Below, piece by piece: positions 8,789 through 55,947 of a stretch of DNA of 64,000 nucleotides. How positions within the stretch are numbered: the first letter of the stretch is position 1; the number at the start of each line of letters is the position of its first letter. Source of the stretch: Verrucomicrobiia bacterium. GTDB lineage: Bacteria > Verrucomicrobiota > Verrucomicrobiia > Limisphaerales > JAEYXS01. The notes beneath the pieces were generated by a model. The model worked only from the letters and a program-made list of their open reading frames with translations. It was not told the DNA's origin and ran no database searches. The DNA lies in assembly GCA_036405135.1 (NCBI GenBank), contig DASWYF010000016.1, positions 1 through 64,000 on the forward strand, written 5' to 3'. Position numbers and translations under genes: made by a program.

Positions 8789-9424
8789 TCACGGTAACGT
8801 ATGCCCCACGATTGTGCAGCGTGGGGAATTCGTGAAATCTGTATAATGGAATTTGCCGCCTGCGGGACAGGGGAGAAGCGGACCATTATCAATATAGAGA
8901 TTTACTTCCGCTAGGGTGGGCGGGGCTTTCGGCATGCGCCTGTGATCGATCAACCATCGTTGAATGCTCCCATCCAAGTAGCGAAGACTGTCTAAGCAGT
9001 GGTCGGTATCTGTCTTCAGTATCTGATGGTTGATCCCCGCATTCTTAAGTTTATCTCGCAGCCATTTGCTGAAAACTTTGGTGTCTGAAATCTCGGCGAT
9101 GCCATGCCGGTAACAGGTGCTTGCCATGGTCAAATTGCCCAAAGTGTAGCTCCCTCCTTGAGGGCACATCGTAGTGACTCCCTGCGGCGGATATGTGCGA
9201 AGTTGTTCTTCCGTGGGGGCGGTGAAGAAGTGGCTTTCGTTTGCCAGGGCCCAGCGGCTGATCGCGAAATCAACCGCCGCCAAGTTTTGCTGGCAGGCAT
9301 TGCCTTGGATGATCACACGCGATTGGTCATCGGTATAGAGATAGACTCCCAGTCCCGTTAAAAGAATTGCGAGCGAAACGATGATCCGCTTGCGATGCTT
9401 TTTGATGATAGGGGTAACAGTCAT
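8789..9424 (-). CDS. Membrane-anchored double Cys/CPxGG/GH-module protein (third of tandem trio)
   Basis: A 211-residue protein of unknown function: a short basic N-terminus, one membrane segment (about 14-29) and two copies of an approximately 70-residue module outside. Each module has a cysteine opening a helix with (I/L)D and W (ACQQNLAAVDFAISRW; HCLDSLRYLDGSIQRW). A spacer with a YI/YPP element follows, then CPQGG or CPAGG, then a third cysteine before an H/GH end (TCYRHG; RCTIVGH). The module resembles the cysteine-containing tails that I recall on verrucomicrobial prepilin-like proteins, but there is no prepilin peptidase site. Last gene of three tandem paralogues reading leftward. Confidence 0.72.
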   Translation of the reverse strand: MTVTPIIKKHRKRIIVSLAILLTGLGVYLYTDDQSRVIIQGNACQQNLAAVDFAISRWALANESHFFTAPTEEQLRTYPPQGVTTMCPQGGSYTLGNLTMASTCYRHGIAEISDTKVFSKWLRDKLKNAGINHQILKTDTDHCLDSLRYLDGSIQRWLIDHRRMPKAPPTLAEVNLYIDNGPLLPCPAGGKFHYTDFTNSPRCTIVGHTLP

Positions 9425-9437
9425 ACGCTGTGATTTC

Positions 9438-10067
9438 TCACGGCAGGCTGTGGCCAGTTATCGTGCAGCAGGGCGGGTTTGACACTTGGGTGAAGGAATA
9501 TTTTCCGCCCAGTGGACAGATAAGAAATTGCCCGTTCTTAAGATAGGTTGCTGACGCATAGGGATTAACCAGGTCTCCATCTTTCATCTTGTTTTCCAAG
9601 GCCCATTGCTGTGCTGCGCCATCGAGTTGCTTCATGTTCGCGATACAGGCATTGCGAGGGGCGAACCTTGAGCCGGGTCTCATGAAGATGTAGGTGCGGA
9701 CGAATTGGCTGACCGGGTTTCTCTTCGGATAGATCGCTACATTGAGTGTCTGCCCGTGAATATTGCAGGTCGTAGCCAGCGCCAATGTGCCGAGCTGATA
9801 TTTGCCTTGGCTAGGGCAAGTCGGAAACTTTCCTTTCTTAAAATAGGAGGCGATATCCTGAGTGGTCGGCTGATTTGTGGTGCTGTGATGATTCGATTTC
9901 GCCCAGCGCGTGATGGCCTGGTCGATCAGGAAGAGGTTCGTTTGGCAGGCTGAAGGTTGGGTCGGGATGGGCACGGGTGCATTCAAACGCCATGCTCTGA
10001 CGCCGAAGAAGATCAGCAGGGTCACGCATAGAAATGCGATCAGATAGATGATTTGACGCGTGCTCAT
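9438..10067 (-). CDS. Membrane-anchored double Cys/CPxGG/GH-module protein (second of tandem trio)
   Basis: A 209-residue paralogue of its two neighbours. One N-terminal membrane segment (about 5-24, IIYLIAFLCVTLLIFFGV) is followed by two modules. Module 1 has SACQTNLFLIDQAITRWA, CPSQGKY in place of CPxGGxY, and CNIHG. Module 2 has NACIANMKQLDGAAQQWALEN, CPLGGKY and PPCCTITGHSLP. Module 2 is almost identical in its ends to module 2 of the next gene upstream, which points to recent duplication or conversion. Gaps to its neighbours are 13 and 18 bases, so one transcript is likely. Function unknown. Confidence 0.72.
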   Translation of the reverse strand: MSTRQIIYLIAFLCVTLLIFFGVRAWRLNAPVPIPTQPSACQTNLFLIDQAITRWAKSNHHSTTNQPTTQDIASYFKKGKFPTCPSQGKYQLGTLALATTCNIHGQTLNVAIYPKRNPVSQFVRTYIFMRPGSRFAPRNACIANMKQLDGAAQQWALENKMKDGDLVNPYASATYLKNGQFLICPLGGKYSFTQVSNPPCCTITGHSLP

Positions 10068-10085
10068 GTGGAAAGGAGTGAGTGG

Positions 10086-10730
10086 TTAAGGCAGGCTGTG
10101 ACCGGTGATGGTGCAGCAGGGAGGATTGCTCACCACGGTGAACCAGTATTTGCCGCCTTGGGGACAAGTAGGGAGAGTGCCGCCTTTCAGATAGGATGCG
10201 GCTCCCATGACGTCGATTTCATCTTTGTCCTCTTTGCGGTTCTCCAAGGCCCATTGTTGAGCGGCACCGTCCATTTGTTTCAGATTGGCGATGCAGGCAT
10301 TGCGATTCGGTTGTATGCGTATTCTAATCAAACCAATGGACTGCAAGACAGCTTCTACAGGGTTTAAGCCGCTGGGTTTTGGCGCAGGTTGCATGATCGC
10401 ACCGTGTTTGCTGCAATAAGTCGTAAGCGCGCCATCCAGAGCCATTTTTATGACTCCGCCTTCCGGACAGTGTGGGACCACTCCCTTGGCGGTATAAGGT
10501 TTCAATGCATCAGCAGGAGCGAAGTTCGTGAGGCCGACGCGAATCGAGTTGGTTAATTGTGCAAGGATGGCGTCAATCTCTTGGATTTGTTGCTGGCAAG
10601 GAATCTGAGGGAGCGCGACTTGAGCAGTTTGCCATGCTCTGACCACGGGATAACCGATGAGAGCAAGCAGGCCCAACGCGAGCAGGATGATACGCTCGCG
10701 GCGGCTGAAAAACTTTCTGACTTCGTTCAT
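10086..10730 (-). CDS. Membrane-anchored double Cys/CPxGG/GH-module protein (first of tandem trio)
   Basis: With ATG 10730 the product has 214 residues, matching its two paralogues; the longer in-frame start at 10859 would add a sequence without similarity. A basic N-terminus (KFFSRRER) and one membrane helix (about 14-31) lead into a first, divergent module (PCQQQIQEIDAI, HCPEGGVI, YCSKHG). The second module is canonical, with ACIANLKQMDGAAQQWALEN, YLKGG, CPQGGKYWF and CCTITGHSLP. First of three tandem genes. The double cysteine in the last motif is shared only with the middle gene. Confidence 0.72.
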   Translation of the reverse strand: MNEVRKFFSRRERIILLALGLLALIGYPVVRAWQTAQVALPQIPCQQQIQEIDAILAQLTNSIRVGLTNFAPADALKPYTAKGVVPHCPEGGVIKMALDGALTTYCSKHGAIMQPAPKPSGLNPVEAVLQSIGLIRIRIQPNRNACIANLKQMDGAAQQWALENRKEDKDEIDVMGAASYLKGGTLPTCPQGGKYWFTVVSNPPCCTITGHSLP

Positions 10731-46043: not shown

Positions 46044-47969
46044 ATGAGTGAATTCCACGTAATCAAAGAGACGCTGGCGGTAACTGCGCGTCGGCGGCGC
46101 TGGCAGCGGGGATGGCGGGGGTTCTGGAAGGGGTTTTTGATCGCCGGAGGGGTTTGGCTGCTAGGACTCATCCTTTATAAAGCTTTGCCGATGCCGGAGC
46201 CGGTGTTATTCGGCATTTTCTTTGCGGGCTGGATCGCGCCCATCGCGGGTTTCTTGAAGGAGTTTTCCAAAGCCGTCACGTTAAATGAGGCGGCGCGCTG
46301 GCTGGATCAGGAAAAGCAGCTCAAGGAGCGCTTGAGCACGGCTCTGGAAGTGGCTGACAGCAAGAAGGATGGAGAGTGGCAGCGCTTGCTGATGACGGAT
46401 GCGGCGACGCATGCGGGGAGCTTGGATGTGGCCAAGATGATGCCGTTCAGCCTGCCGAAGGCGGCGAAGTGGAGTTTCATACTGCTGGTCATCACCGCAG
46501 GGGTGGGTTTTGTGCCGGAATACCGGACGGTGGAGTATCGACAGAAGAAGCAGAATGAGGCGGTAATGAAAGAGGTGGGCGAGCGGGTGACAACGCTCAC
46601 CAAGAAACAGATGACGAACCGGCCGCCAGCCTTGGAGAGCGTGAAGAAGGCGCTTGAGGAGACGGCGGAGTTGGGGCAGCAACTGCAGAAAGCGAAGCTG
46701 ACGCGGGATGAGGCGCTCAAGAACATCGCGAAGGTCACGGACAAGGTGAAGGAGGAGACACGTGACCTGATGAAGAACCAGGGTTTGCAACGGATGCAGC
46801 AAGCTGCACGGACGTCAGGGCAGGATCAGGCAGCGACGCCCGAGCAGCTTCAGAAGCAGATCGATGATCTGAAAGACAAGCTGGGACAGGAACCGCCGAG
46901 CACCAAGGAATTGAGCGAATTGCAGGCGCAATTGGAGAAGATGCAGGCGGCGGCTGCGGAGATGAAGAACCAGAGCGGCAATGAGGCGGAGGCTTCCAAG
47001 CAGGCGATGTCACAAGCGCTTTCCAGCCTGATGAAACAGGCGGAGGCTGCTGGGTTGGATTCCAAGAAGCTGGAAGAGGCAATGAACGCTTTGAAGGCGG
47101 GCAAGACGGATCAGGTCTTGAAGGAATTGAACGCGGCTTTCCAAGACATGGAGAAGATGAAGGAGCTGGCGAAGGCGCTGGAGAATCTCCAGATGCAGAA
47201 GGAGGAGATGGGCAAAGATCTCGCCGAGCAACTGGAGCGGGGACAGGTGGCGCAGGCGCAGAGTTCGTTGCAACAGATGATCCAGAAGCTGCAATCTGGC
47301 CAGGCGTCTGCGGAGGACATGAAGAAGATGTTGCAGGAACTGCGGAAGGCGCAGGAGCCGGCGGAAGGTTACGGCAAGGCGAGCGAGCATCTGGGTGAAG
47401 CCGTGGCACAGGCGCAGGCGGGCAACAAGTCTGATGCCGTGAAGGAATTGACGGAAGCGATCAAAGAATTGCAGAAGATGCAGGAGCAGATGGGTGATCT
47501 GGAATCACTCATGGCGGCGCTGGAGAATCTGCAGCAGGCGCAGCAATGCGTGGGTAATGGAAAATGCGATGGTATGGGCTGGGGGATGCGGAACCGCCCG
47601 GGCTTTGGTGGTAATTGCAAGGGCAATGAGATGTCGGCGTGGTTTTACCATGAGTTTTACAAGAGTGGTGGCAAGGGCGGTTTGAAGGCTGGCACAGCGG
47701 TGGACGGAACCTGGTCCGAGGCGGATGTGAAGGAGCCGACGGATCCGTTGCTGACCACGAAGGTGAAAGGGCAGATCACGCCGGGCGGGCCGATGCCGAG
47801 CATCACGCTGAAGGGCGTGAGTATCAGAGGCCAGAGCACGGTGGCGTTTGAGGAAGTGGCTGCGACGGCGCAGTCTGAGGCGGAGAGCGCGCTGGCGCAG
47901 GACAAGGTGCCGCGGGCTTATCGCAATGCGGTGCGGGATTACTTTGATGATTTCAAAAAGAAGCAGTGA
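46044..47969 (+). CDS. DUF4175-like membrane protein with long coiled coil
   Basis: A 641-residue inner-membrane protein. Two or three membrane helices lie in the first 165 residues (FLIAGGVWLLGLILYKAL; PVLFGIFFAGWIAPIAGFL; WSFILLVITAGVGFVP). A periplasmic or cytoplasmic region of about 300 residues follows with heptad-like Lys/Glu/Gln/Met content (QLEKMQAAAAEMKNQSG; LEEAMNALKAGKTDQVLKEL), a clear long coiled coil. A cysteine-containing glycine-rich stretch (QCVGNGKCDGMGWGMRNR) comes near residue 505. First gene of the MoxR-VWA operon. Such proteins occur regularly upstream of MoxR; function unknown. Confidence 0.7.
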   Translation: MSEFHVIKETLAVTARRRRWQRGWRGFWKGFLIAGGVWLLGLILYKALPMPEPVLFGIFFAGWIAPIAGFLKEFSKAVTLNEAARWLDQEKQLKERLSTALEVADSKKDGEWQRLLMTDAATHAGSLDVAKMMPFSLPKAAKWSFILLVITAGVGFVPEYRTVEYRQKKQNEAVMKEVGERVTTLTKKQMTNRPPALESVKKALEETAELGQQLQKAKLTRDEALKNIAKVTDKVKEETRDLMKNQGLQRMQQAARTSGQDQAATPEQLQKQIDDLKDKLGQEPPSTKELSELQAQLEKMQAAAAEMKNQSGNEAEASKQAMSQALSSLMKQAEAAGLDSKKLEEAMNALKAGKTDQVLKELNAAFQDMEKMKELAKALENLQMQKEEMGKDLAEQLERGQVAQAQSSLQQMIQKLQSGQASAEDMKKMLQELRKAQEPAEGYGKASEHLGEAVAQAQAGNKSDAVKELTEAIKELQKMQEQMGDLESLMAALENLQQAQQCVGNGKCDGMGWGMRNRPGFGGNCKGNEMSAWFYHEFYKSGGKGGLKAGTAVDGTWSEADVKEPTDPLLTTKVKGQITPGGPMPSITLKGVSIRGQSTVAFEEVAATAQSEAESALAQDKVPRAYRNAVRDYFDDFKKKQ

Positions 47970-48010: not shown

Positions 48011-49009
48011 ATGAGTACTGAGGAGCAAATCGCGTCGTTCCGGGACAAGTTTGACCGGATGAAAGCGGAGATCGGTAAAGTCATCGTGGGACACGATGCG
48101 ATCGTGGAGGGAACGCTGACGGCACTTTTGGGCGGAGGCAATCTGCTGCTGGAAGGTGTGCCGGGCCTGGGCAAAACACTTTTGGTGCGCACCTTGAGCG
48201 AAGTGTTGGAGCTGTCGTTCAACCGCATCCAGTTCACGCCGGACCTGATGCCCGCGGATATCTTGGGCACCAACCTCGTCGTGGAAACTCCTGATGGACG
48301 GAAGGAATTTCAATTTCAACGCGGACCGATCTTCGCACATCTGGTGCTGGCGGATGAGATCAATCGCGCGACGCCGAAAACACAGTCGGCCTTGCTCGAA
48401 GCGATGCAAGAGCGGCAGGTGACGGCGGGTGGCGCGGTGCGAAAACTCGTCGAGCCGTTCTTCGTGCTGGCGACGCAAAATCCGATCGACCAAGAGGGAA
48501 CGTATCCGCTGCCGGAAGCGCAGTTAGACCGTTTTTTCTTCAAGCTGCTGGTTGGTTATCCTACGGCGGAAGACCTTACCGAAGTGCTGAACCGCACGAC
48601 GGAAGGTTATAAGGCGCACATCGAGAAAGTCATTGATGGTGCGACGCTGATGGAGATGCAGGGACTGGTGCGGCAGGTGCCGGTGGCGACGCATGTGAAG
48701 GATTACGCGGTGCGACTCATCCTGGCGACGCATCCGAAGACGGACACGGCAGCGGCGATCACGAACCAATATCTGAGGTTCGGCAGCAGTCCGCGTGGCG
48801 CGCAAACACTCTTGCTCGCGGCGAAGGTGAAGGCGCTGACGATGGGGCGGTTCAATGTGAGCTTCGATGACATCACGGCAGTGATCCACCCGACGTTGCG
48901 GCATCGCCTGATCTTGAATTTCGAGGCGGAGGCGGAAGGCATCACCACGGACCACATCATCACGCAAATCCTGAAGGAAGTGCCGAAGGATGCGGCGGTG
49001 GCGGCTTAA
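48011..49009 (+). CDS. MoxR-type AAA+ ATPase
   Basis: A 332-residue AAA+ chaperone-like ATPase of the MoxR family. Walker A GVPGLGKT is at 49-56, Walker B LVLADEINRATPKTQSALLEAM begins near 110, and sensor/arginine regions include LATQNPIDQEGTYPLPEAQLDRF. MoxR proteins are thought to act with VWA proteins, as here, in maturation of metal-cofactor or envelope complexes. A strong GGGGAGG precedes ATG 48011, which is why the in-frame ATG at 47966 was not used. It follows the coiled-coil protein by 41 bases. Confidence 0.93.
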   Translation: MSTEEQIASFRDKFDRMKAEIGKVIVGHDAIVEGTLTALLGGGNLLLEGVPGLGKTLLVRTLSEVLELSFNRIQFTPDLMPADILGTNLVVETPDGRKEFQFQRGPIFAHLVLADEINRATPKTQSALLEAMQERQVTAGGAVRKLVEPFFVLATQNPIDQEGTYPLPEAQLDRFFFKLLVGYPTAEDLTEVLNRTTEGYKAHIEKVIDGATLMEMQGLVRQVPVATHVKDYAVRLILATHPKTDTAAAITNQYLRFGSSPRGAQTLLLAAKVKALTMGRFNVSFDDITAVIHPTLRHRLILNFEAEAEGITTDHIITQILKEVPKDAAVAA

Positions 49010-49015
49010 GGGGCT

Positions 49016-49435
49016 GTGCGCATATCAGAACATTATTGGTGGGTGCCACCACTGGTGATCTTTGGAGGACTGTTGTCAGTCTCAGTGATTCTGCTGGTTC
49101 GCAAAAAAGTCGTGTCTGGAATTCTTTTGGGAATAGTGACGCTATTTCTGTTTGCTGTAGTGGCTCCTAGTATGAGGTCTGCCCGCCCACAAGCTCAGCG
49201 CAATGCCTGCTTGGCAAATGTAAAACAACTGACGATGGCAGCAGAGCAATGGAGCAAGGAAAATAATAAAGTGGCAGGGGATAAAATAGATGTGGTGGCT
49301 GCAGTGGCTTATTTGAAAGGCGGTCACATGCCCGTTTGCTCACGAGGAGGTTTTTACAGTTTTTCTGTAGTGGGGAAATCTCCAGAGTGTTCGCTGCCAG
49401 AACACGATAGCAAGATACCACCTTATAAACCATAG
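49016..49435 (+). CDS. Small two-helix membrane protein with single Cys/CPxGG/GH module (1 of 3)
   Basis: A 139-residue protein started by GTG 6 bases after the MoxR stop. Two membrane helices (about 9-28 and 32-51) are followed by one module. ACLANVKQLTMAAEQWSKEN opens it, YLKGG is kept, CSRGGFYSF replaces CPxGGxY, and CSLPEH replaces the last CxxxGH. The module is the same as that in the trio at 8789-10730, with a different membrane part. Its position between moxR and the DUF58 gene makes it a candidate accessory subunit of the MoxR-VWA complex. Function unknown. Confidence 0.7.
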   Translation: MRISEHYWWVPPLVIFGGLLSVSVILLVRKKVVSGILLGIVTLFLFAVVAPSMRSARPQAQRNACLANVKQLTMAAEQWSKENNKVAGDKIDVVAAVAYLKGGHMPVCSRGGFYSFSVVGKSPECSLPEHDSKIPPYKP

Positions 49436-49438
49436 CGC

Positions 49439-49867
49439 ATGTCACACTCACCCATCATCGCCGAAGTCTTCTTGGGGCTCGTCCAGTCGCGAGATCTCAT
49501 GATTTGGGCGTTGTGGAGTGTCATCCCTGTGGTGTTGTTTTTGCGGGGAAGGCGCAAGCTGGGCATAGCTGCCGCGGTGATCGTGCTGATCATGATCGCC
49601 GTCTATCTCCCGAGCAGTGCCGGGGCGAGAGAACGGGCTTATCGCGCGGCCTGTTTGCAGAATCAGCAGGAGATAGCGCAGGCGGTCGAGCAAGTGGCCA
49701 AAGCCAAAGGAGCCAAACCCGGCGATAACATCGATCTCAAAGAAGTGACCGCCAAGTTGCCAGCCGGAACGATGCCGGTTTGCGGTGCGGGAGGAACTTA
49801 CACGATCACCAAAGTGGGCGAAGCGCCCGTATGCAGTCTTGCCGGCCATAAACCTGACGGACACTAG
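49439..49867 (+). CDS. Small two-helix membrane protein with single Cys/CPxGG/GH module (2 of 3)
   Basis: A 142-residue paralogue of its neighbours. Two helices (about 22-36 and 41-58, LGIAAAVIVLIMIAVYL) lead into one module with AACLQNQQEIAQAVEQVAKA, CGAGGTYTI in place of CPxGG, and VCSLAGHKPDGH. The starting tryptophan helix position carries V instead of W. Gap to the preceding gene is 3 bases and to the next 4, so all three are coupled. Function unknown. Confidence 0.7.
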   Translation: MSHSPIIAEVFLGLVQSRDLMIWALWSVIPVVLFLRGRRKLGIAAAVIVLIMIAVYLPSSAGARERAYRAACLQNQQEIAQAVEQVAKAKGAKPGDNIDLKEVTAKLPAGTMPVCGAGGTYTITKVGEAPVCSLAGHKPDGH

Positions 49868-49871
49868 AAAC

Positions 49872-50306
49872 ATGTCACAAACGCTCAGCACATTCGGAAA
49901 TGAGTTTATCCAGGCTGTCATCATGGTGAATACTTTTAATGTATTCATGTTGGTGGCTGGGCTGGGGTTGCTGAGTTTTCTTTTGGTAAAGAAGCAGAGA
50001 GTGTTTGCATCGGTTTGGTTTGTGATCTTGAGCGTGCTGATGGCGGGACTTACGATGCCGGTTTTTTCCCGGTCAGCGAAAGCCACCACTCGCATCAATT
50101 GTACATCCACACGGGTTCAGGTCGAAATGGCCATACAGCATTGGGTTGAAGAGGGTAAGATCGTTCAAGGCGCAGATGTGGACCTTCAACTGGTTGCGGC
50201 TTACTTGAAAGGTGGCGTGCCAAAATGTCCTGAAGGTGGAGCCTATTTGGTTGGCAAGGTCGGGCAACACGTGTCATGCACTATCGCAGATCACAATAGA
50301 AATTAA
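49872..50306 (+). CDS. Small two-helix membrane protein with single Cys/CPxGG/GH module (3 of 3)
   Basis: A 144-residue paralogue. Two helices (about 20-40 and 45-62) are followed by a module with INCTSTRVQVEMAIQHWVEEG, YLKGG, CPEGGAYLV and SCTIADH (D in place of G). Three cysteines match the family positions. The longer in-frame start at 49785 overlaps the previous gene and was rejected. One base separates its stop from the DUF58 start, so it is part of the operon. Confidence 0.7.
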   Translation: MSQTLSTFGNEFIQAVIMVNTFNVFMLVAGLGLLSFLLVKKQRVFASVWFVILSVLMAGLTMPVFSRSAKATTRINCTSTRVQVEMAIQHWVEEGKIVQGADVDLQLVAAYLKGGVPKCPEGGAYLVGKVGQHVSCTIADHNRN

Positions 50307-50307
50307 G

Positions 50308-51204
50308 ATGTCGCAACCGCTCATCACTGCTGAACTTTTGCGCCGGCTGGAACAGCTCCAGTTGCTGGCGCGGCGGCGTTCCAAGAGCACGGTGCGCGGT
50401 GAGCGGCGCAGCAAGGCACGCGGTCAATCGGTGGAGTTCGCGGACCATCGCAATTACGTCTCCGGCGATGACTTGCGGTATCTGGATTGGAATCTCTATG
50501 GCCGCCTGGACAAGCTCTTCCTGAAACTCTACGAGGAAGAACGCGAACTGCCGGTGACGATCTTCTTGGATTGCAGTGAATCGATGGCATTCGGTGAACC
50601 GAACAAATTCCATTTCGCACGGCAACTGGCGGCAGCGATCGGTTACGTGGCCTTGTGCGGGTTCGATCGCGTGAGTGTGCGGACGTTCCCGGACAATCCG
50701 GCGGAGTCAGCTTATCGGCAATCGCTGCTCTCGGTGCGCGGACGTAAATCCAGTCTGCAATACTTCCGCAACCTCGCGCACCTCACGGCGAAGGGCACGG
50801 CGGATTTTAATGGCGCATTGCGTCGCGGTGCGTTGGAAGCACGCACAACCGGTGTGGCCGTGGTGCTCAGTGATTTTCTCGATCCGCAAGGGTATGAAGC
50901 GGGGCTGACTTCTTTGATCGGACGCGGCTTTCAGGTTAATGCAGTGCAAATCCTTTCGCCGGAAGAGATCTCGCCGACGAACTTTGGTGACTTGCGATTG
51001 ATCGATGCGGAGACGGGGGCGCAGACAGAAGTGACATTTGGGCGTTACCGCTTGGAGCAGTATCAGCAGATGGTGGAAAACTTCCGGCAGAAGCTGCGGG
51101 AGTATTGCGCGGGACGGGGCATCAGCATCTTCACGGCGAGTTCGGCGGATTCATTGGAGCAATTGCTGCTCAAGCAACTGCGCGAAGCGGAGGTGTGGGG
51201 ATGA
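50308..51204 (+). CDS. DUF58 protein of the MoxR-VWA operon
   Basis: A 299-residue (298 plus stop) cytoplasmic DUF58 protein with a VWA-like C-terminal half. The family signature EFADHRNYVSGDDLRYLDWN at about 40-60 is clear. VTIFLDCSESMAFGEPNKF supplies the VWA strand and MIDAS-like DCSES, and VAVVLSDFLDPQGYE the later strand. DUF58 proteins occur invariably with MoxR ATPases. The stop overlaps the start of the next VWA protein (ATGA). Residue count includes the ATG at 50308. Confidence 0.92.
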   Translation: MSQPLITAELLRRLEQLQLLARRRSKSTVRGERRSKARGQSVEFADHRNYVSGDDLRYLDWNLYGRLDKLFLKLYEEERELPVTIFLDCSESMAFGEPNKFHFARQLAAAIGYVALCGFDRVSVRTFPDNPAESAYRQSLLSVRGRKSSLQYFRNLAHLTAKGTADFNGALRRGALEARTTGVAVVLSDFLDPQGYEAGLTSLIGRGFQVNAVQILSPEEISPTNFGDLRLIDAETGAQTEVTFGRYRLEQYQQMVENFRQKLREYCAGRGISIFTASSADSLEQLLLKQLREAEVWG

Positions 51205-53036
51205 ATTTTCTGGCTCCATTCGCGTTCCTGTTCGCGGCCACGCTGCCGGTGGTCATCGTGTTTTACATGCTCAAGCGGCGTCGCACGGTGCGGCTCGTCT
51301 CGAGCACGATCCTCTGGCAGAAGTTCCTCGCGGAAACACAGGCGAATGCACCGTTCCAGAAGCTGAGGAACAACTGGTTGTTGCTCTTGCAACTGTTGCT
51401 GCTCGCGCTGGCGGTGTTTGCTTTGGCGCGACCTTACTTTGCGGCGACGACGCAGGAGCCTGGCTTAGTGGTAGTGATCCTTGATGGCTCGGCCTCCATG
51501 CAGGCAAGGGATGAATCGCCTACGCGCTTTGAAGCGGCGCGCAAGGAAGCGTTAAAGCTGGTTGATGGTTTGAAGGATACGGATCAGATGATCGTGGTGC
51601 TGTCCGCGGGTAATACGGTGGTGCGGCAATCACCCACGGCGGAGAAGACGACGTTGCGGCGCGCGTTAGAGGAATGTCAGCCGGGTGATACGCCGACGCG
51701 GGTTGAAGAGGCGTTCAAGCTGGCGCAAACGCTGTCCAAGAATCGTTCGAATGTGGAAGTGCATTTCTTTTCCGATGGCGCGATACCGGCAGCGGAGAAT
51801 CTCACAGCGATCAAGTTGCCAGTCGTTTATCACCAGTTCGGCAAACGTGCGAACAATGCGGGAATCACGGCGATGGATGTGCGGCCGCATCCGGAAGATC
51901 CCTCGCAGCGCGTGGTGTTCGCGAGCGTGTTCAATGCTTCGACGAATGCGCAAACGGTGAGCGCGGAACTGCGGTTCAACGGACAGTTCATCGACAGCAA
52001 GGTGTTGAACCTGCCTGCGCGTGAAGCAGCTTCCACGGTGTTCGCGGCTGAGCAGAAGCAGAGCGGGACTTACACACTCAAACTGAAAGCGGATGACGAT
52101 CTGGCAGTGGACAATGAAGTGTCCATCATCAGCAAGATGCCGCGTCCGGTGAAGGTTTTGCTGGTGTCAGTGGGCAATCGTTTCATGGAAAGCGCCATAC
52201 GCGTGCTCCCGAATGTGGAGGTCAGCACGGCTTCGCAACTGACGGCAGGTGGCAAAGGCTATGACATCGTGGTGCTGGACCGCGTGACGCCGGTCACGCA
52301 GCCCGAAGTGAACACGCTGGCGTGGAATATCGGGAACACGAACTGGTTCGAATCTTGGCGCACGGTGGAGAATCCGGTGGTGGTGGACTGGAACGCGAAT
52401 CATCCGCTGATGCGGTTCGTCACGTTTGACAATGTGCGCGTTTATCAAACGCTGGGAGTTAAGGCGCCAAAGTGGGGCTTGGTGCTGGTGGAAGCACAGC
52501 AGACGCCGTTGCTCATCGCCGGTGAAAAAGGCCGTCAGCGTCTGGTCTGGGTGGGATTTGATTCCTTGGAGAGCGAGTGGCCGTTGCGTAACTCGTTCAT
52601 CATATTCATGGCGAACTCGATGGATTGGCTGAACCCGCAGCAGACAGATGCGAGCCAGTTCACTTTGCAAGCGGGCACGGCGTTCCGTCAGCCGTTGTTT
52701 GCGACGGTGGATTCAGCGACGGTGACTTTGCCCAAGGGGGATAAGAAAGAAGTGAAGCTGGGCGAGCAGGCGAAGGAGTTCATCTGGGGTGAAACGTACC
52801 GCGTGGGTTCCTACAAGGTGAACCATGGAACAAATGAGATGGCGTTCACCGTGAATTTGATGGACCCGGCGGAGAGTGATATTACGCCGCGCAGTCAGGT
52901 GCCAGTGGGAGCGGCGGGCTCGGTGACGGCGACGAATTCCATCCGGGCGAATCTCGAATATTGGCGCTGGTTCGTCATGGCCGCGCTGGGCGTGCTGCTG
53001 TTCGAGTGGTGGTACTATCATCGGAGGACCGTATGA
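51201..53036 (+). CDS. BatA-like VWA membrane protein
   Basis: A 611-residue inner-membrane protein of the BatA/aerotolerance operon type. N-terminal helices flank a cytoplasmic loop (FLFAATLPVVIVFYMLKRRR and LLLLQLLLLALAVFALARPYF). The VWA domain has an intact MIDAS DGSAS at 95-99 (VVVILDGSASMQARDE), then TVVRQSP and VHFFSDGAIP. A long periplasmic beta-rich part and a last helix (RWFVMAALGVLLFEWWYY) follow. It probably binds metal-dependent partners together with MoxR and DUF58. Confidence 0.9.
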   Translation: MNFLAPFAFLFAATLPVVIVFYMLKRRRTVRLVSSTILWQKFLAETQANAPFQKLRNNWLLLLQLLLLALAVFALARPYFAATTQEPGLVVVILDGSASMQARDESPTRFEAARKEALKLVDGLKDTDQMIVVLSAGNTVVRQSPTAEKTTLRRALEECQPGDTPTRVEEAFKLAQTLSKNRSNVEVHFFSDGAIPAAENLTAIKLPVVYHQFGKRANNAGITAMDVRPHPEDPSQRVVFASVFNASTNAQTVSAELRFNGQFIDSKVLNLPAREAASTVFAAEQKQSGTYTLKLKADDDLAVDNEVSIISKMPRPVKVLLVSVGNRFMESAIRVLPNVEVSTASQLTAGGKGYDIVVLDRVTPVTQPEVNTLAWNIGNTNWFESWRTVENPVVVDWNANHPLMRFVTFDNVRVYQTLGVKAPKWGLVLVEAQQTPLLIAGEKGRQRLVWVGFDSLESEWPLRNSFIIFMANSMDWLNPQQTDASQFTLQAGTAFRQPLFATVDSATVTLPKGDKKEVKLGEQAKEFIWGETYRVGSYKVNHGTNEMAFTVNLMDPAESDITPRSQVPVGAAGSVTATNSIRANLEYWRWFVMAALGVLLFEWWYYHRRTV

Positions 53037-53052: not shown

Positions 53053-55947
53053 ATGAACATCCAATTCACGACGCCTTACTGGTTGTGGGCTCTCGTGCCC
53101 GGAGCAGTGTGGGTGCTGTGGCTCGCGATCAAGTCGGATGCCCAGCTCAGCCCTTGGCGGCGCTGGCTGGTGACGAGCTTGCGACTGATGATATTGCTCT
53201 GTCTGGTGCTGGCTCTCGCGGGCATCCAGTGGAAGCAGCCGAAAGAAGGGTTGAACGTATTCTTCCTACTGGACCGTTCGCAAAGCGTTTCGCCGGAACA
53301 ACAGGAACGTGCGCTGAAATACGTCAATGAAACCGCGAAGGGTAAAACGCTCAGTGATCGTGGCGGTGTGATCGTGTTCGGTGCGGGAGCAAGCATTGAG
53401 ACGATGCCGAATCCAGTGGTGGAATTGCCGCAGGTGCAGGCGGTGATCTCGCCGGAGAGAACGGACCTGGGGGCGGCGATACGCTTGGCCGCTGCCGCTT
53501 TGCCGGAGCATGGACAAAGGCGGCTCGTCGTTCTGTCAGACGGTAACGAAAATTCCGGTGATGCCATGGCTGCGGTGCTCGCCGCAAAACCATTGGGTGT
53601 CACTGTGGATGTGGTGCCGCTGAGCCTTTCACGCGGTGGCGATGTATCCGTACAGAAACTCACTTTGCCTTCCAAGCTCAAGGTGGGGCAGGCATTTGAG
53701 GTGAAGATATTGCTGCACTCGGATCGCGAGAAAGCGGCCTCAGTGCGGCTGTTCCGCAATGATCAATTGCTTGGTGAACAGCCGGTGCAATTGACACAAG
53801 GGAAGAATCTCTTCGCGTTCCCGCAGAAGCTGGAGGAAGCGGGTTTTTACAATTATCAGATCCAGGTAGATGTGCCGGGTGACACGATCCCGCAGAACAA
53901 TAAGGCGACGTCTTTTGCGAGCGTGCGTGGCGATCCGACATTGCTGCTGGTATCCGCTGATCCGGCGCAGGATGCGAACCTCGCGGAGGCGTTGCGATCC
54001 TCCAAACTCACGGTGAAGCATGTGGCGGTGGAAGGTTTCCCGGAGACGCTCGCCGAGATGCAGAGCTACGATTCCATTTTCATCAGCAACATCGCTTCCG
54101 GCGATCTGACGATGGACATGTTAAAGCTGCTGGAGATCGCGGTGCGCGATTTCGGTGTGGGCCTGGTCTGCGTGGGTGGTGATCAGACGTATGCGGCGGG
54201 TGCGTATCGTGGCACGCCTTTGGAGACAATCCTGCCGGTGGATGTGGAGCTGAGCAGCAAGAAAGTTTTGCCGCCGGGTGCGTTGGTGCTGGTCATCGAC
54301 AAATCCGGCAGTATGGATGGTGAGAAATTGGAATTGGTGAAGTCCGCAGCGATCGGTGCAGTGCGGGCTTTGGGTGATTCGGATTATGTGGCTGTCATCG
54401 CATTTGATGGGCAGCCGGTGGTGGTGGCAGAAATGCAGAAGGCATCGAACCGCACGAAGATCGAGCGCAGCATCTCAGGCATCGTCAGTGGTGGCGGCAC
54501 GGCGATGTATCCGCCGATGGTGAGGGCATATGAAATGTTGCACGAAACAAGAGCGTCCCTGAAACACGTGATCGTGCTGACGGATGGTGAATCGCAACCG
54601 GGAGATTTCGAGGGCATCACGAAGAAGATGGCAGCGGAAAAGATGACAGTATCGACCGTCGCGGCTGGTGAATACATCGATGGGGCGTTACTGCAAAGCA
54701 TCGCGAATGCGGGCAAAGGCCGGTTCTATCACGTGCGGAATCCGACGCAGATACCGCAGGTGTTCATCAAGGAGACGGCGGTGATCTTGAAATCCGCCAT
54801 CAGCGAAGAGCCGTTCCAGCCGAGGATGGTGGCAAGCACCGAAGTGGTGCGCGGCTTTGGCAATGGTGAGTTCCCGACATTGCTCGGACATGTGGCGACG
54901 GAGCCGAAGAGCCGCGCGGAACTGGCTTTGGTGACGGGAACGGGCGATCCACTGCTGGCGCATTGGAATTTCGGTCTGGGCCGATCGGTGGCGTTCACAT
55001 CGGATGCCAAACCACGTTGGGCAAAGAACTGGATGGGTTGGAGCAAGTATCGCCAGTTCTGGTCGCAGGTCGCGCAATGGAGCCTGCGCAAGTTGGAGAG
55101 CGCGAATTTCAATGCTGAGATGACGGTGGAGAAGGGGGATGGCGTCCTGACGGTGGAAGCGATGGATGACAAGGGCGATTTCCAGAACTTCCTGAATCTG
55201 GAAGCGACGGTGGTGAGTCCCAAAGGCGACCGGCAAAGGGTGCGTTTGGAGCAGACGGCGCCGGGTCATTACGAGGTGAGGTTCCCGACGAAGGAAGTGG
55301 GTGCGTATGTGGCGCAGCTCTCACAAATGAAGGATGGCAATGTGATGGCGGGACAGGTGGTGGGGACGGCGGTGAACTATTCGCCGGAGTTCGAGGCTAC
55401 CGAAACGAATATACGACTCATGCAGCAGCTGGCGGAAGCGGGGGAAGGGCGTGTGATCAATCCGCAGTTGAACAGCGACAATCCCTTTGTGCATGACCGG
55501 GTGAAGACATTCCAGCCGGTGGACCTGTGGGAGTGGCTTTTGAAGGCGGCGATCTTGTTGTTCCCATTTGATGTGGGTTTACGGCGTATCCACCTGGATA
55601 AGGAAGAGTGGATGAAGGCGACAGCGACGCTACGGCGTTGGATTTTCTTCTGGAAGCCGCAGGGGCATCGACCGCAGGAGGCGGATGAATCTTTGGCGGC
55701 CTTGCTTAACCGCCGCGATCAAGTGCGGGCCACACAAAAACCGGCTGAACCAGTGGTGGTAAATCCGGGCATGTTCCAACCCAAGGAACCGGTGATCATC
55801 CGTGCTCCGAAGAAAGAGCCAAAGACGGTTGTAGAAGGGGAGGGGGCGTCTGAAGTCGGAACTGGAGCAAAAACGGATAAGGTGGACGACACGACGACCA
55901 CGAGCCGGTTGCTGGAGGCGAAGAAACGCGCCCAGAAGCGGAGGTAA
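53053..55947 (+). CDS. Large VWA protein with two VWA domains and an embedded GATase-like domain
   Basis: A 964-residue inner-membrane protein, last gene of the operon, with AGGAGG eight bases before its ATG. Two N-terminal helices (9-26, 38-58) are followed by VWA domain 1 with MIDAS DRSQS at 74-78. A class I glutamine-amidotransferase-like segment follows (about 290-400, LLVSADPAQDANLAEAL and FGVGLVCVGGDQTYAAGAY) without the catalytic triad being evident. VWA domain 2 has DKSGS at 416-420. The C-terminal third is beta-rich, then a helix (WLLKAAILLFPFDVGL) and a disordered Lys/Pro/Thr-rich tail ending RAQKRR. Confidence 0.9.
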   Translation: MNIQFTTPYWLWALVPGAVWVLWLAIKSDAQLSPWRRWLVTSLRLMILLCLVLALAGIQWKQPKEGLNVFFLLDRSQSVSPEQQERALKYVNETAKGKTLSDRGGVIVFGAGASIETMPNPVVELPQVQAVISPERTDLGAAIRLAAAALPEHGQRRLVVLSDGNENSGDAMAAVLAAKPLGVTVDVVPLSLSRGGDVSVQKLTLPSKLKVGQAFEVKILLHSDREKAASVRLFRNDQLLGEQPVQLTQGKNLFAFPQKLEEAGFYNYQIQVDVPGDTIPQNNKATSFASVRGDPTLLLVSADPAQDANLAEALRSSKLTVKHVAVEGFPETLAEMQSYDSIFISNIASGDLTMDMLKLLEIAVRDFGVGLVCVGGDQTYAAGAYRGTPLETILPVDVELSSKKVLPPGALVLVIDKSGSMDGEKLELVKSAAIGAVRALGDSDYVAVIAFDGQPVVVAEMQKASNRTKIERSISGIVSGGGTAMYPPMVRAYEMLHETRASLKHVIVLTDGESQPGDFEGITKKMAAEKMTVSTVAAGEYIDGALLQSIANAGKGRFYHVRNPTQIPQVFIKETAVILKSAISEEPFQPRMVASTEVVRGFGNGEFPTLLGHVATEPKSRAELALVTGTGDPLLAHWNFGLGRSVAFTSDAKPRWAKNWMGWSKYRQFWSQVAQWSLRKLESANFNAEMTVEKGDGVLTVEAMDDKGDFQNFLNLEATVVSPKGDRQRVRLEQTAPGHYEVRFPTKEVGAYVAQLSQMKDGNVMAGQVVGTAVNYSPEFEATETNIRLMQQLAEAGEGRVINPQLNSDNPFVHDRVKTFQPVDLWEWLLKAAILLFPFDVGLRRIHLDKEEWMKATATLRRWIFFWKPQGHRPQEADESLAALLNRRDQVRATQKPAEPVVVNPGMFQPKEPVIIRAPKKEPKTVVEGEGASEVGTGAKTDKVDDTTTTSRLLEAKKRAQKRR

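Follow-up and report, generated by a model that had tools for sequence, protein, structure and literature searches.

Hairpin-anchored descendants of type IV pilins between the moxR and DUF58 genes of a Verrucomicrobiia operon

Introduction

As a rule, type IV pilin heads are known only from the end of processed pilin sticks. PilJ of Clostridioides difficile, unlike the proteins described here, undergoes pilin processing and contains a further pilin-like domain, and it reportedly carries a zinc site. Prepilin processing depends critically on Gly-1, and homopolymer assembly on Glu5 (PMC4471445), and in modular pilins foreign domains have been grafted on the pilin stick (PMC10191384). MoxR-VWA (BatA/DUF58) operons encode MoxR, a DUF58 protein, a BatA-N/VWA protein and a long VWA protein, and NorQD with cNOR is a MoxR/VWA pair encoded together with a metal-dependent client (PMC9976466).

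Here we analyze an operon with the same MoxR, DUF58, BatA-N/VWA and long VWA components in a 64,000-nucleotide stretch of DNA from a Verrucomicrobiia bacterium, referred to below as the window. In contrast to other MoxR-VWA operons and to NorQD-cNOR, it carries pilin-head genes between moxR and the DUF58 gene, an arrangement found only in the source genus. The three proteins at this position, M1, M2 and M3, are type IV pilin or type II secretion system (T2SS) pseudopilin descendants without a prepilin processing signal.

Results and Discussion

Genomic arrangement of the locus

The genes of the operon lie on the plus strand of the window. A 641-aa membrane protein 5′ of moxR (46044..47969), without a Pfam match and kept in both congeners compared, precedes the moxR-type AAA+ ATPase gene (48011..49009; PF07726 and PF17863), after which come M1 (49016..49435, 139 aa), M2 (49439..49867, 142 aa) and M3 (49872..50306, 144 aa, the most diverged of the three), the DUF58 protein (50308..51204; PF01882), a BatA-N/VWA membrane protein (51201..53036), and a 964-aa VWA/GATase1-like membrane protein (53053..55947) that closes the conserved cluster. 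The original prediction that three small genes fill the moxR-DUF58 gap, each encoding two membrane helices and one cysteine module, was confirmed, and the spacers of 6, 3, 4 and 1 bases along moxR-M1-M2-M3-DUF58 support its view that these genes are built into the operon. From this spacing we infer that M1-M3 are co-transcribed with the operon. The M1 start codon is GTG, preceded by AAGGGG, and a scan for promoters and terminators within the operon gave no signal exceeding chance. GC3 is 0.42 in M1 and 0.53 in M3, as compared with 0.69-0.76 in neighboring operon genes.

Pilin ancestry of the module

Searched as a single sequence across the genomes of the order, M1 retrieved genuine prepilins at E-values from 7e-21 to 1e-16, the best of them L020 (E 7e-21), and many of its top unlinked relatives across the order were prepilins. 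Residues 36-37 to about 130 of M1 align with prepilins of 120-150 aa that follow the pattern GFTLVE...NACIANLKQIDGA...CPxGG...CxxxGH, placing the second helix of M1 at the position of the pilin alpha1 helix; the translation of L020, a clear prepilin, reads GFTLVEIMIVVAIIGLLAAIAIPNFVKARTTAQKNACIANLKQIDGAVQQWALENKK...CPSGGVYSTGAVSASPECTKTSDGHSI. The prepilin relatives match PF07963 and TIGR02532, with additional partial matches to GspG, PilA and ComGC. Homology of M1-M3 to verrucomicrobial prepilins and GspG-type major pseudopilins (PF07963, N_methyl; TIGR02532) extends over about 90 residues, and common to both are the end of alpha1, A.P...AR..A..NAC, and the CxxGGxY...C...H head that follows it. 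A profile of pilin relatives scored M1 at E 4e-36, M2 at E 6e-31 and M3 at E 3e-28, although these values come from a profile built with M1-M3 included; because M1 alone finds independent prepilins, the similarity of the module is not due to chance. A profile search of the PDB returned geopilin, PilA and PulG at E 2e-7 to 9e-4.

Pfam and NCBIfam scans of M1-M3, and of the related proteins D1-D3 encoded in a distant cluster of the window, gave no match above cut-off; PycTM, AmpE, T2SSM and LCP were rejected as identities, being sub-threshold matches to membrane helices. Against the GspG equivalog model TIGR01710, M1 scored 13.8 bits versus the curated score of 88.85 bits, a model on which true prepilin relatives themselves reach just ~46 bits. 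Our literature search on the module family found no paper. Judged by its sequence, the module is no new domain but the head found in verrucomicrobial type IV pilins or T2SS pseudopilins.

The module had originally been described by a Cys/CPxGG/GH motif. It is indeed present in each of M1-M3, but the literal CPxGG occurs only in M3 (CPEGG, with CSRGG in M1 and CGAGG in M2) and GH only in M2 (EH in M1 and DH in M3); the invariant features are three cysteines, one histidine and GG(x)Y. Across an alignment of 41 sequences, P51, C65, C108, Y114, C125 and H130 (M1 numbering) are invariant, which includes a conserved ligand-type set of C65, C108, C125 and H130. This Cys3-His set probably stabilizes the head, either through a structural metal ion or through a disulfide. 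PilJ (4ixj) gives a weak profile match (E 0.37) that aligns the alpha1 Cys and CxxGGxY, a likeness that provides a lead towards a metal-binding head. Two Omnitrophota prepilin relatives (L150 and L153) are missing the second Cys while the other three residues of the set are kept, which is compatible with a disulfide between the first and third Cys instead of a metal.

AlphaFold (AF2) models had pLDDT values of 87 for M1 and 84 for M3. The M1 model consists of a helix (12-28), a single long pilin-type helix of 51 residues (32-82) and the head, with the long alpha1 helix and small beta-hairpin head seen in pilins, and the M3 model places an extra N-terminal helix before helices 44-61 and 68-95 and the head. 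PilJ was the best fold match of the models, at middling Z values of 7.9 and 7.5, and PulG/GspG matches were likewise middling at 5.6-6.6 (PulG 5.9 and GspG 5.6 in one search). Foldseek against the PDB gave weak matches (best E 1.1), with the C. difficile pilin PilA1 in all of the top five rows. Because the Z values are middling (<8), the fold assignment rests mainly on sequence homology.

Loss of the prepilin signal and gain of a hairpin anchor

Compared with prepilins, M1-M3 have no leader, Gly-1 cleavage site or Glu5, and they carry an extra N-terminal helix. The class III signal as a whole (hydrophilic leader, Gly-1 and Glu5) was absent in M1-M3 and in the four hairpin relatives checked; the N-terminal leader of M1-M3 is hydrophobic, and PF07963, found in the prepilin relatives, had no match in these three proteins. 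Their two hydrophobic helices form a hairpin with an R/K-rich turn between them, for which the positive-inside rule predicts a periplasmic location of the head and of the two termini. The same architecture recurs in G023 (L058 11491-11907) and G267 (L128 4968-5387, identical to L175), and less similar hairpin proteins occur in G042 (L096) and as a second protein of G002 (L098 5036-5665).

Since Gly-1 and Glu5 are missing, M1-M3 are presumably not processed by prepilin peptidase or normally extracted into a filament. They might still act as minor pilins that join a pilus or pseudopilus by an atypical route, with another protease removing the extra helix, given that the head and alpha1 helix are retained and that the source genome encodes a prepilin peptidase and many prepilin-like relatives; however, the absence of both residues from M1-M3 and the checked hairpin relatives, together with a hydrophobic leader and the critical role of Gly in processing (PMC4471445), makes such a role highly unlikely. 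Sequence and models show instead that the long helix and Cys3/His head of the pilin ancestor are kept while the cleavable signal G|FTLxE is lost, and that an extra upstream helix makes the anchor a membrane hairpin. If the R/K-rich turn lies in the cytoplasm, the pilin head would be displayed in the periplasm, on the inner membrane.

Conservation of the insertion

Two congeners were compared, G001 (JAURFH01) and G002 (JAJNBN01), and in both of them gene order is kept across the whole cluster and a single module gene lies between moxR and DUF58. An insertion in the source genome alone, which the original prediction had set as a refuting outcome, is thus not what we observe, but conservation ends at the genus, since no module gene lay in the flanks examined at any of 27 DUF58 loci outside the genus but within the order. 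When 320 genomes of the order were searched with the congener protein, a full-length orthologue in the slot was likewise found only in the source genus. The slot gene in G001 and G002 is the orthologue of M1 (66% and 60% identity to M1, respectively), and M2 and M3 occur at this operon slot only in the source genome. In the tree, M1 groups strongly with the genes of both congeners (support 99/92), and M1-M3, the congeners' genes and the G023 protein group weakly (83/50). The M1-M2 and M1-M3 distances exceed those among M1 orthologues, from which it follows that M2 and M3 either stem from old duplications, with the copies since lost in the congeners, or arrived later.

At 19 of the 27 DUF58 loci in other genera moxR was in view, separated from DUF58 by <100 bases in 10 cases and by 179-1145 bases in 9, and at the remaining 8 loci there was no moxR within 1.5 kb. 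Several of the 9 longer gaps hold unrelated ORFs. The moxR-DUF58 junctions of five loci (L068, L072, L081, L082 and L090) contain unrelated ORFs that differ between genera and include antitoxin-like, phosphotransferase-like and transposase-like frames. At the moxR-DUF58 junction, the conserved operon is permissive for insertions. One hairpin-type gene probably entered the junction in an ancestor of the genus and is presumably read with the operon; the source genome has two additional, diverged copies (M2 and M3) in the operon, an arrangement that is directly observed.

Taken to its extreme, this raises the prospect that M1-M3 are pure passengers, copies of a proliferating family that landed in a permissive junction and have no particular function there. 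Occupation of the junction by unrelated genes in relatives, the low GC3 of the inserted genes, and the frequency of tandem amplification among pilin-head proteins agree with that proposal. However, dN/dS for M1 is ~0.09-0.13 (NG86, with synonymous sites near saturation), and at a ratio of ~0.1 the gene is under purifying selection; all three Cys and the His are also kept in M1-M3 and the orthologues, indicating selection on the protein. We consider pure passengers improbable.

Relationship between the module and MoxR

The original prediction also noted that a distant cluster of the window carries the same module, and this proved real: D1 (8789..9424), D2 (9438..10067) and D3 (10086..10730, with an ATG start) lie on the minus strand, each encoding two pilin-head modules and one TM helix. 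The inference that the shared module links the two loci did not survive, because pilins with this head form a very widespread family and two occurrences in one window therefore link nothing; a tempting but weak connection is thereby removed. Co-occurrence of the module with MoxR, set beforehand as a test, failed as well, in that module genes elsewhere, including those of the hairpin type, stand without MoxR neighbors. No MoxR, DUF58 or VWA gene was present in the flanks examined at the other module loci of the source genome (C20 twice, C34, C25, C39 and D1-D3, the last within a 3.2 kb stretch), and the contigs that carry the hairpin relatives of three other families (G023, G267 and G042) yielded no MoxR. 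Among ~100 module loci, a MoxR/VWA neighbor was seen only in the genus operon, plus one distant MoxR fragment (60% identity) that lies at a contig end ~3.6 kb from a true prepilin in L127. Eight MoxR homologues are encoded in the source genome, and the genomes compared carry 4-9 MoxR paralogues each, so the L127 case is unremarkable. An apparent linkage at L084 was rejected as a spurious antisense match.

Gene linkage to moxR/VWA was accordingly confined to one genus (3/3 genus genomes, 0/27 other DUF58 loci). Within that genus, the M1-type gene stands as a member of the operon. As a general rule, the proposed handling of module proteins by MoxR-VWA systems is not supported, given the 0/27 count, the permissive slot and the lack of linkage elsewhere. 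A narrower version would make M1-M3 genus-specific clients or adaptors of MoxR-VWA, either matured by the AAA+ ATPase and its VWA partners (e.g., by insertion of metal into the Cys3-His head) or tethering the complex at the membrane. The 1-6 base spacers within the operon, an occupied slot in 3/3 genus genomes and purifying selection all favor this version, for which NorQD and cNOR offer a precedent of a MoxR/VWA pair encoded with a metal-dependent client (PMC9976466). On the other hand, neither the other module loci of the source genome nor the hairpin relatives in three families have a MoxR neighbor, the insertion is absent in other genera, and M1 diverges far faster than its supposed partners, MoxR (92-93% identity in the same congeners) and DUF58 (93-96%), although a client under weak constraint can also diverge fast. 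Clients or adaptors of this kind are possible but, on this evidence, unlikely. We are doubtful of the fuller proposal of a genus-specific MoxR-VWA system that acts on metal-binding pilin heads with hairpin anchors, maturing them or holding them at the inner membrane on its periplasmic face; if true, a pilin head would have been recruited as an AAA+ chaperone subunit or client.

The reading we favor, and hold to be probable, is that M1-M3 are hairpin-anchored pilin descendants that serve as independent envelope proteins using the expression of the operon, and not conserved parts of MoxR-VWA. Independence from the MoxR-VWA machine appears most likely, while the tight spacing and the presence of M1 in 3/3 genus genomes would also be expected if M1 were functionally tied to the operon.

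Pilin heads on other anchors

Within Verrucomicrobiota, the pilin head was found on hairpins, a lipoprotein, DUF4190 proteins, coiled coils, ~550-aa proteins and a Ser/Thr kinase, and prepilin forms of the head were found in Omnitrophota too; with so many anchors, the head is a reusable extracytoplasmic domain. Modular pilins likewise reflect cut-and-paste evolution around the pilin scaffold (PMC10191384), but M1-M3 are their reverse, with a pilin head on other anchors (hairpin, and elsewhere lipobox, DUF4190 or kinase). Pilin heads grafted onto non-pilin anchors represent a new variation on the known pilin theme, and annotation from the prepilin signal alone overlooks such proteins.

Several individual cases were noted. 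L095 5160-5582 (G007:C77) combines a lipobox, LFAGC, with the pilin head, giving a lipoprotein-anchored head. DUF4190 membrane proteins are fused to the head in L034 and L037, and in L032 also with GYF_2, and coiled-coil proteins with the head occur in L033 and L136. Proteins of ~470-670 aa with a C-terminal TM helix and pilin head recur across the phylum, with examples of ~550 aa in L011 (5176-6879, minus strand; C25:57184 of the source genome), for which Pfam gave no match, and L036 (154-1779); further long frames with the head were seen in G072, G116, G155, G150, G122, G113 and G092. Two three-gene clusters encode double-head proteins, one at 8789-10730 of the window and the other at C34:106700-108710 of the source genome (L010 4571-6714), both apparently amplified in tandem. 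In L098 1642-4461 (G002:C78), a Ser/Thr kinase carries a TM helix and a C-terminal pilin-head module, and a kinase whose extracytoplasmic portion is a pilin head would be notable; here the module is apparently shortened by an in-frame stop, and a sigma-factor-like gene adjoins.
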